From contig DXJG01000001.1 of the NCBI GenBank assembly GCA_019056805.1, forward strand, positions 124,001-188,000: a stretch of 64,000 bases of DNA. Reading direction: 5' to 3'. This document shows positions 51,423-53,130 of this stretch, piece after piece (the first letter of the stretch is position 1; each line of letters starts with the position of its first letter). This stretch comes from Candidatus Baldrarchaeota archaeon (GTDB lineage: Archaea; Asgardarchaeota; Baldrarchaeia; Baldrarchaeales; DXJG01). The translations under genes and the position numbers were made by a program. A model generated the notes under the pieces. That model was given only the letters and a program-made list of their open reading frames with translations. It had not been told where the DNA came from and ran no database searches.

Positions 51423-52391
51423 TTATTCACTTGATTTTTCTACTAAAAACTTTTTGACTTCACAAGCAATTACACGAGCTAGAACAACGGGAACGGCTTC
51501 ACCTACCTCTTCGTACTGTACAGATCTACCTCCAAAAAATACGTGATCATCTGGAAAACTCATCAAACGAGCATGCTCCCGCACTGTTAAAAAACGATCT
51601 TCGAAAGGGTGAATAAATCTAGAATTGCCTAAAACGGTTGGAGCAACCCTATAGGGATGTAATCTAGTCCAATTAGTAAAAATTTTTCCTCTTGCACCTC
51701 TATAAAAGATAAGAGACTCCCCCCACCTAAGGGAAGCTATTTTCTTCCTTTTTCGTCTAGGTATGGGATGCCATTCATGATTAGGTACATCGTGTACACC
51801 TTCAGGATCTGGTAAGTCACCGATAGCCTCAATAACTGTAACCTTTTTCTTTACTGGCTTTGGAGAGAGTTTTATGTTAGAAATAAACAATCTTGAACGC
51901 CTAGAAGGATTACCGTATCTTTCAGCTCTTAAAAGATTAAAATATATTTTTGAATACCCTACTCGTTCAAACTCTTTTTTTATTGCATCTTTTAAAGGGC
52001 CCTCAATAATTTGAGGGACATTTTCCATAACAAATACCTTTGGTCTTAAATCACCAACAAAACGAATAAAACTTAATGTAAGTCTCCCAATAGGATCTTT
52101 ATAAAGCCTATCTAGGGGATTTTCTAGTCTTTTAATATTGGCGGCTGTAAAGGGTTCACAAGGAGGCGAACCTATAATAACATCGGGTTCTTTACCGATA
52201 AAACCCAAAAAGTCGATAGGATGAATATTTTTTATGTCTTCAACAATTAAAGTTGTATTTGGAAAATTGTAACGATACGTTTCAGCTACGGGTGGAAAAT
52301 TATCTATTGCTCCCACAACTTCGAAGTCCTCATCTACAAAGCCGCGAGAAAAACCACCAGCACCACAAAACAGATCATAAACTCTAAACAT
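51423..52391 (-). CDS. DNA (cytosine-5)-methyltransferase
   Basis: 323 residues from ATG 52391, with GAGGTGG upstream. A longer frame from 52457 would read through the tRNA-Ser gene and is rejected. Motif I is DLFCGAGGFSRGF, motif IV GSPPCEPF with the catalytic cysteine, motif VI MENV and motif VIII NPSRRSRLF. The C-terminal part holds RVAPTVLG and REHARLMSFPD. No restriction endonuclease is adjacent, so it is an orphan methyltransferase that may serve epigenetic or protective roles. The recognition sequence is unknown. Confidence 0.88.
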   Translation of the reverse strand: MFRVYDLFCGAGGFSRGFVDEDFEVVGAIDNFPPVAETYRYNFPNTTLIVEDIKNIHPIDFLGFIGKEPDVIIGSPPCEPFTAANIKRLENPLDRLYKDPIGRLTLSFIRFVGDLRPKVFVMENVPQIIEGPLKDAIKKEFERVGYSKIYFNLLRAERYGNPSRRSRLFISNIKLSPKPVKKKVTVIEAIGDLPDPEGVHDVPNHEWHPIPRRKRKKIASLRWGESLIFYRGARGKIFTNWTRLHPYRVAPTVLGNSRFIHPFEDRFLTVREHARLMSFPDDHVFFGGRSVQYEEVGEAVPVVLARVIACEVKKFLVEKSSE

Positions 52392-52462
52392 ATATTCCAC
52401 CTCAAAATTAGGGTGGCGCCGGGGGTGGGATTTGAACCCACGCGGCACAACGGCCACGGGCT

Positions 52463-52476
52463 ATCCACCCCTAGGA
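52463..52476 (-). other. Predicted 14-nt intron at canonical position 37/38 of tRNA-Ser
   Basis: After removal of the anticodon-stem intron, the stem CGGGC/GCCCG forms the outer helix, CTGC pairs with GTGG as central helix (two G-U pairs), and the bulges are TAT and ATA. Cutting as usual leaves A37 and A38. The intron is very short and its own helix is only CC/GG. Confidence 0.65.
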
Positions 52477-52484
52477 TAGCAGGC

Positions 52485-52512
52485 TTGAGCCCGCGAAGGA
52501 AACTATAGCGGA
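52485..52512 (-). other. Predicted intron (28 nt) within the anticodon stem of tRNA-Ser, between positions 29 and 30
   Basis: A nearly perfect motif: outer helix GTAGG with CCTGC, central helix GAGC with GCTC, bulges GGT and AAG, and intron helix CCGC with GCGG. Cutting after the second bulge base joins CGG to GC and so completes the anticodon stem strand CGGGC. Confidence 0.8.
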
Positions 52513-52527
52513 CCGCTCCCTACCAGG

Positions 52528-52549
52528 TTCCCCGGAGATCTATTATCCT
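52528..52549 (-). other. Predicted D-loop intron (22 nt) of tRNA-Ser
   Basis: On the minus strand the central helix TCCT pairs with GGGG, the bulges are AGA and AAC, and the intron helix starts GGA with TCC. Joined exons read TCCTAG-CCTGGTA, a standard D loop. Position and bulges equal those in tRNA-Val. The outer exon helix is weak, as in relaxed motifs. Confidence 0.7.
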
Positions 52550-52780
52550 CTAGGATACCCCGGCATTCTTTAATTAGATAAATGTGCGTCTTCCTTATTT
52601 ATTATTTTCTAAGTTATTAATAGTGATTAATCAAAGAGCATGTTACTATACATAGTGGGTTTTTTAATTTTTGGAACAATAAGTCAAGTAACGGTTTAAT
52701 AGAGATTTTGATAAATAGATCATAAATCAAGTAATATTCTTTAAATTTCAATAATATAGATAATTTTGAAAAGAATTAAA

Positions 52781-53130
52781 GCGGCCGCGGCCCCCTTGGG
52801 TGGATACCTTTCCCGATCGCGGTGTTTCAGCCCCCAGTCTCTACTCCGCACCCCCGTGAGCGCCGAACGTCCGGGGTTAGGTTGCTCCTTCGGGTGGACA
52901 GTAACACTCTCCATCTCCCGGGCCTGGCCTGGTTCCCCCGGTAAGGGTCGTAGTACTCCCGCCTAAGCGGGAGACCCGACCGCCGCCGACCCCACGGGAC
53001 GGAGTTTCATCGCTGTGAGGCTAAATCCTGCGATCGGGGTTAGGTATCGCCCCTTGGGTTACTGGCCCCGCCATAAACCGGGTTTGCGGTTACAGGAAAC
53101 CGGTAACTTCCCGGCCCTACCCGCGGCCGC
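52781..53130 (-). ncRNA. Signal recognition particle (7S) RNA with an intron in helix 8
   Basis: A GC-rich 350-nt RNA whose ends pair (GCGGCCGCGG at 5' with CCGCGGCCGC at 3'). The Alu-like part holds CCTGTAACCGCAAACCCGG, typical of archaeal 7S RNA. The S domain holds GAACCAGGCCAGGCCC and GGAGCAACC, the two sides of the SRP54-binding helix 8. They are separated by an insertion of 26 nt (52889-52914). Without it the RNA is 324 nt and helix 8 ends in CAGG-CCC-GGGA-GGG-AGCA with a GNRA tetraloop. A T-rich run follows the 3' end. Confidence 0.92.
52889..52914 (-). other. Predicted 26-nt bulge-helix-bulge intron in SRP RNA helix 8
   Basis: On the minus strand the central helix CGGG (52920-52917) pairs with CCCG (52894-52891). 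The bulges are AGA (52916-52914) and AAG (52890-52888), each exactly three bases, and the intron helix is TGGA with TCCA extended by AGT with ACT. Cutting after the second bulge base gives GGGAG joined to GGAGCA, the canonical tip. The motif has no deviation in bulge size or central helix length. Confidence 0.88.

Follow-up and report, generated by a model that had tools for sequence, protein, structure and literature searches.

The SRP RNA gene of a Candidatus Baldrarchaeota archaeon carries an insert of 26 nt (52889-52914) in the tip of helix 8. Judged from its sequence and that of its relatives, the insert is very probably a BHB intron, which the tRNA-splicing endonuclease and RtcB would remove with restoration of the SRP54-binding loop. 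The gene lies in the window, the whole 64,000-nt stretch of contig DXJG01000001.1 that was analysed. The same position is reached by: i) the cut points predicted from the BHB motif; ii) the deletion that scores best against intronless relatives; iii) the empty site of a relative; and iv) the bond at which 12 loci are interrupted. This agreement is beyond chance.

The SRP RNA gene and its interrupted tip

A cmscan search of the window gives a match to Archaea_SRP (RF01857) at 52784-53127 on the minus strand, scoring 168.5 bits where the cut-off is 96.5. The alignment is full length (model positions 1-317 of 317) and contains one large insert only, in the tip of helix 8. The gene ends are placed at 52781-53130 by a perfect helix 1 of 10 bp (Table 1). 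Gene order is conventional, with both ends in helix 1, and the gene is thus not permuted in the manner of Thermoproteus.

The original prediction was of a helix 8 interrupted by 26 nt, and the full-length alignment bears this out. Read in the direction of the RNA, the insert runs from 52914 to 52889. It falls one base past the GGGA tetraloop: the first G of the GGG strand closing that tetraloop precedes it and the other two follow, and the stem closing the SRP54 loop has its 3' strand divided. With 52915 joined to 52888 the sequence becomes CAGGCCCGGGAGGGAGCA, and the tip without the insert reads CAGG-CCC-GGGA-GGG-AGCA; this is the canonical tip that excision had been predicted to produce, and it equals the empty site of a relative (locus L003, below).

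Across the insert, CGGG (52920-52917) is able to pair with CCCG (52894-52891), leaving 3-nt bulges, AGA and AAG, on opposite strands. BHB motifs are cleaved after the second nucleotide of each bulge. Applied to the window (AG/A and AA/G, the slash marking the cut), this rule delimits an intron of 26 nt. When the 64-nt tip is folded freely in isolation, the central helix, the 5' bulge and the inner hairpin form as drawn and the outer helix is absent; the exonic strands available for an outer helix offer a single C-G pair beside the 3' bulge, followed by the symmetric loop of helix 8. Taken alone, the motif is no evidence of an intron, because in an RNA this rich in GC it is no rarer than in shuffled sequence: under loose rules the window RNA holds 4 BHB-like motifs, and 100 dinucleotide shuffles hold a mean of 3.95 and a maximum of 10. 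The textbook BHB claimed at the outset thus holds for its parts (CGGG/CCCG, AGA, AAG, and a central helix present in the fold of the window tip), but not as a distinctive motif; the central helix is missing from the minimum-energy folds of 11 of the 12 isolated interrupted tips.

Table 1. Parts of the SRP RNA gene and of its predicted intron, in window coordinates
Feature	Position	Strand	Evidence
SRP RNA gene, 350-nt precursor, non-permuted	52781..53130	-	RF01857, 168.5 bits; terminal helix GCGGCCGCGG/CCGCGGCCGC
Exon 1, 216 nt, 3' end ...CAGGCCCGGGAG	52915..53130	-	Sequence; boundary is that of the best-scoring deletion
Predicted BHB intron, 26 nt, ATGGAGAGTGTTACTGTCCACCCGAA	52889..52914	-	Best deletion; 11 other loci interrupted at this bond by differing sequence
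Exon 2, 108 nt, 5' start GGAGCAACC...	52781..52888	-	Sequence
BHB central helix, 5' strand CGGG, exonic, also in the mature tip	52917..52920	-	Part of the window tip's minimum-energy fold
BHB central helix, 3' strand CCCG, intronic	52891..52894	-	CCCG, CTCG, CTTG or ACCG across 12 loci
5' bulge AGA, predicted cut AG/A	52914..52916	-	Structure as drawn; general BHB cut rule
3' bulge AAG, predicted cut AA/G	52888..52890	-	Structure as drawn; general BHB cut rule
Inner hairpin, intronic, TGGAGAGTGTTACTGTCCA: 4 bp and 3 bp separated by a G.G mismatch, loop of 3 nt	52895..52913	-	Fold, -6.4 kcal/mol

Just downstream of the SRP RNA gene lies a probable tRNA gene with several likely introns (~52414-52564, minus strand). 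Its acceptor ends are GCCGGGG...CCCCGGC plus GCCA and its T arm is intact; ARAGORN does not detect it, and cmscan reports a tmRNA-like T-arm fragment only. An open reading frame at 51423-52457 (minus strand) resembles, by eye, a DNA cytosine methyltransferase. The GTG that opens this frame falls within the 3' portion of the probable tRNA gene, so translation probably begins at a more internal codon.

The interruption in relatives

The effect of removing the insert was measured with a profile HMM, used in place of the Rfam model that the original prediction had named. Its training set comprised 64 helix 8 regions without an intron from the window's phylum; the nearest relative, L003, was excluded. 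Deletions of 8-45 nt near the helix 8 tip were scored. Of the 2,643 scored for the window, the best is the one predicted by the BHB, which raises the score from 18.3 bits unspliced to 45.8 bits, the anticipated gain; the runner-up reaches 44.1 bits. An earlier scan with deletions of 10-40 nt has the identical winner in the window. Rank 1 belongs to the predicted intron in all 12 interrupted loci (2,225 to 2,833 deletions each), with gains of 15.7 to 33.8 bits. This rank is unshared in 11 loci and tied with one neighbouring cut in L112. In ten control tips without an insert, five of which belong to the training set, even the best deletion reduces the score.

The empty site is found within the window's class, which comprises four genomes. 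A member of the same order (G003) has an SRP RNA, L003, with the uninterrupted tip GGCCAGGCCCGGGAGGGAGCAACC; across the junction it is identical, in every letter, to the product predicted for the window. Its RF01857 score is 183.0 bits, compared with 168.5 for the window SRP RNA. In G001, which belongs to the same genus as the window, this bond is interrupted by 24 nt with another inner hairpin. The CM search gave no SRP RNA match in the other genome of this genus (G002).

Beyond the class, SRP RNA matches were obtained in 173 of the 227 genomes of the window's phylum. Inspection covered 149 SRP RNA places from 148 of these 173 genomes; 9 places are interrupted and 140 are not. The interrupted ones belong to four families: G000 (the window's own genome) and G001 (f1); G072, G073 and G074 (f12); G075, G076 and G078 (f13); and G159 (f20). 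The SRP RNA contig of G072 matches JAHLWX010000002.1, Candidatus Jordarchaeum sp. LHC_1308, of the Promethearchaeati, the Asgard group; as G072 shares its phylum, the window archaeon is a likely Asgard too. Outside the window's phylum three interrupted loci were found, all in one phylum: L112 (Bathyarchaeota MAG ILS 300, WUQV01000146.1) and one each in G303 and G455. In the class of G303, 33 of 40 genomes have an SRP RNA match, and of 31 inspected, 2 are interrupted and 29 are not. Thus, 12 loci, nine in the window's phylum and three in the other, are interrupted at the same bond, by inserts of 15-31 nt whose sequences differ inside.

The joined exons read CCGGGAG/GGAGC in all 12 loci, an identity that is partly built in because the intron bounds in relatives were set by a pattern containing these flanks, CCGGGAG and GGAGC; the deletion ranks and the pairing are not so affected. 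Six of the 12 loci (G073, G075, G076, G078, G159 and G455) came from CM matches and not from strict pattern searches. In the window's phylum the strict tip pattern hit 4 of 227 genomes and its control none, the remaining 5 loci coming from inspected CM matches. A pattern scan of contigs returned at least 117 stretches, mostly chance matches. Closer examination covered three of them: two were confirmed by CM as SRP RNA, L112 and L107, the latter being the same gene as the SRP RNA gene of G072, and L089 was inspected by eye. In the phylum of G227 (398 genomes) the tip pattern occurs at 9 places in 8 genomes and its reversed control at 10 places in 9 genomes, so there the pattern itself is no evidence. 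CM testing covered six of these nine places; it identified two as SRP RNA, L242 (the same site as L112) and L243 (in G303), and gave no SRP match for L241, L244, L245 and L247. The pattern count for this phylum is a lower bound because the pattern misses the tip of G455.

The tetraloop is GGGA in all 12 interrupted tips, in keeping with the CGGG strand, which requires it; uninterrupted tips have GGGA, GGAA and others.

Some further features of these RNAs were noted. The interrupted SRP RNA of G303 (L243) adjoins a tRNA match on the same strand. The tip of L015 (G159:C398) resembles those of f13, unlike the other f20 genomes inspected, and contamination of G159 is listed at 9%; this contig may be foreign to G159 or misbinned. 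An extra hairpin occurs in the Alu domain between helices 3 and 4, at the usual place of UGUAA, in L010-L013, L015, L017, L030, L167 and L112, and is absent from the window SRP RNA. It is read as an ordinary helix, and a second intron was rejected, because by eye it has no constant BHB and because L010 carries it without an insert in helix 8.

Pairing across the loci and the alternative of a longer tip

Base pairs were counted on 11 of the 12 loci, G455 having been found later. Central and inner helix together are paired in 80 of 83 cells (96.4%), and 12 cells have changed on both sides. The covariation of the drawn structure is 0.541 and that of shuffles 0.232 +/- 0.041, with 0 of 500 shuffles matching it; on one of the five measures, pairs with change on both sides, 90 of 500 shuffles equal it. 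Because the loci are related, these shuffle counts are not probabilities. Sliding the register by 1-3 columns lowers the paired fraction to 41-54%.

The two helices contribute differently. The inner hairpin is paired in 94.9% of cells, and both-side changes occur in all 4 of its pairs and are confined to it. In the central helix the intronic CYYG is pairable with the exonic CGGG in 43 of 44 cells of the 11 loci, the exception being in G074, and the intronic strand (CCCG, CTCG, CTTG or ACCG) keeps a constant offset from the 3' cut. Shuffling has no bearing on the central helix taken alone, since the exonic side of that helix is invariant. The drawn central helix is part of the minimum-energy fold of one isolated tip in 12, that of the window; in each of the other 11, adopting it would cost 1.3 to 7.4 kcal/mol relative to the minimum. 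In some loci exonic GAG could instead pair with intronic CYY, a register of 3 bp. Together with the inner hairpin, this register is paired in 88.9% of cells, versus 96.4% as drawn, and its A-U pair fails in 5 of 11 loci. Most of the covariation comes from the inner hairpin, which explains why this register scores (0.540) like the drawn structure.

These folds bear on the main alternative, namely that the 26 nt are a retained extension of helix 8, giving a longer mature tip which the SRP54 of the lineage accommodates. Such an extension fits an insert that folds as a hairpin on the tip and minimum-energy folds that differ from the drawn BHB in 11 of 12 loci. It has a parallel in basidiomycete SRP RNAs, in which helix 8 loop insertions are kept in the mature RNA according to the available text of PMC4605306. 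An extension of this kind would, however, have to split the 3' strand of the closing stem, and would have to recur as 15-31 nt of differing sequence at one bond in 12 loci, with exact removal the best deletion in each. It also sits poorly with the ability of CYYG to pair with CGGG in 43 of 44 cells and with the lack of an insert in G003. The relatives share the position of the insert and neither its sequence nor its length, and 140 of the 149 places inspected in the phylum lack it; this is not the normal helix extension common to relatives against which the original prediction had asked to be weighed. A retained extension was rejected as improbable.

Proposed processing, precedents and possible origin

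For the BHB intron, the following pathway is proposed. In the precursor, the exonic CGGG would pair with the intronic CCCG to form the BHB; the tRNA-splicing endonuclease would cut both bulges at the sites in Table 1; and RtcB would ligate 52915 to 52888. The product would be a linear SRP RNA of 324 nt with the canonical tip. As long as the insert divides the 3' strand of the closing stem, SRP54 binding would be lost and SRP assembly delayed.

The components of such a pathway are encoded in the class. PF01974 (endonuclease) matches number two per genome in all four genomes, and an RtcB match is present in all four. In G000, the alignment of one PF01974 protein (184 aa) with PDB 3p1z and 3ajv, the Aeropyrum pernix endonuclease entries, spans the protein's length (E 1.4e-44 for 3p1z). 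It retains the His that is Ala in 3ajv, and in a gap-free stretch its Lys39 lies opposite chain Lys44 of 3p1z/3ajv, the conserved loop Lys beside the active site. The second protein (178 aa) has Val where 1a79 has His; the His at these positions is a catalytic residue. The pair fits the catalytic plus structural subunit, broad-specificity (alpha-beta)2 type. As described in the available text of PMC6379350, an endonuclease with catalytic and structural subunits is efficient on relaxed BHB motifs, and the loop Lys has a role.

The tRNAs of G000 point to frequent small introns. Of 37 tRNA matches listed, 26 are over the cut-off, and 17 of these span at least 92 nt (L259-L274 and L278), although some of the shorter ones among them could be tRNAs with a long variable arm. 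Long inserts are present in all seven tRNAs that were aligned, in the anticodon loop or the D loop (the D loop in three cases); this makes small introns outside the anticodon loop a normal feature of this genome.

The same cuts are predicted if the tip is opened and the ends are left unjoined, so that the functional SRP RNA consists of two pieces held together by helices, an arrangement for which two-piece tmRNAs are a known parallel (PMC10085705). Yet RtcB is encoded in the genome; the open Thermoproteus tip bound SRP19 and SRP54 less well (available text of PMC4731332); and the consensus is restored exactly at the junction, which only a joined RNA would need. A two-piece RNA is accordingly very unlikely. 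A pseudogene or assembly error could be suspected in a draft genome of 18 contigs, but is less likely still, as the gene is the sole SRP RNA match of that genome, is full length, scores above the family cut-off and has 11 counterparts in other genomes interrupted at the same bond.

The closest precedent for a spliced SRP RNA tip is in Thermoproteus. T. tenax and T. uzoniensis have a permuted, circular SRP RNA; the recombinant T. tenax endonuclease cut the BHB of the permuted RNA; and in T. tenax SRP19 and SRP54 were bound less well when the helix 8 tip was open (Plagens et al. 2015, eLife, PMC4731332). At the level of the tip this case and the one predicted for the window are alike: a BHB at the helix 8 tip, ligation that restores the SRP54 loop and a two-subunit endonuclease. 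Cutting by the endonuclease is demonstrated in Thermoproteus and expected in the window SRP RNA. The gene layouts differ. Thermoproteus has the gene halves in reversed order, a BHB made by leader and trailer, and a circular mature RNA, whereas the window gene has the normal order, ends in helix 1, a probable internal intron and a predicted linear mature RNA.

Like the BHB introns of archaeal tRNA and rRNA, the window insert can form a central helix of 4 bp between bulges of 3 nt; its predicted cut sites follow the second nucleotide of each bulge, and, in common with the other loci, it is short (15-31 nt). It differs in its host, an SRP RNA, and in its outer helix, which has one C-G pair and the helix 8 symmetric loop in place of a regular stem. 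Among Asgard archaea, the tRNA introns of Atabeyarchaeia and Freyarchaeia are comparable in being numerous and often outside position 37/38 (PMC11291895, Nat Commun 2024); neither "SRP" nor "signal recognition" occurs in the main text of that paper. The basidiomycete insertions likewise lie near the SRP54 site of helix 8, but they occur in the asymmetric loop and are kept in the mature RNA, and the available text of PMC4605306 mentions no BHB. In the open-licence full-text literature, to which the search was confined and which excludes subscription papers and preprints, no archaeal SRP RNA intron was found in the text available. An ancestor of the permuted SRP RNA with a simple BHB intron was, however, already proposed in the available text of Plagens et al. 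2015 (PMC4731332). Thus, the idea of SRP RNA introns is in print, and the actual examples appear to be new.

Recurrence of the position in several families and in a second phylum indicates that the tip is probably either a hot spot of intron gain or the site of an old intron lost many times. The distribution (9 of 149 places, families with empty neighbours, another phylum with three such genomes) suggests that a favourable hairpin gained introns repeatedly, and on these sequence comparisons we lean towards this over an old intron with many losses. A broader reading, to which we give about even chances, is that the SRP54 loop is a recurrent site of BHB introns in Asgard and TACK archaea, that the targeting site is broken in the precursor, that SRP biogenesis needs the tRNA-splicing machinery, and that, in line with the evolutionary intermediate suggested in the original prediction, the permuted circular SRP RNA of Thermoproteus descended from an intron-bearing gene.

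If the intron is real, SRP RNA is to be added to the archaeal hosts of BHB introns, so far tRNA, rRNA and a few mRNAs, and the interruption hits a highly conserved, functionally critical loop. The simple-intron form postulated by Plagens et al. 2015 would then be supplied, in several lineages and at one bond, and a single order would contain both interrupted and empty sites. Direct tests would become possible of how an essential gene other than a tRNA gains and loses introns, and of whether protein targeting in likely Asgards depends on tRNA splicing.
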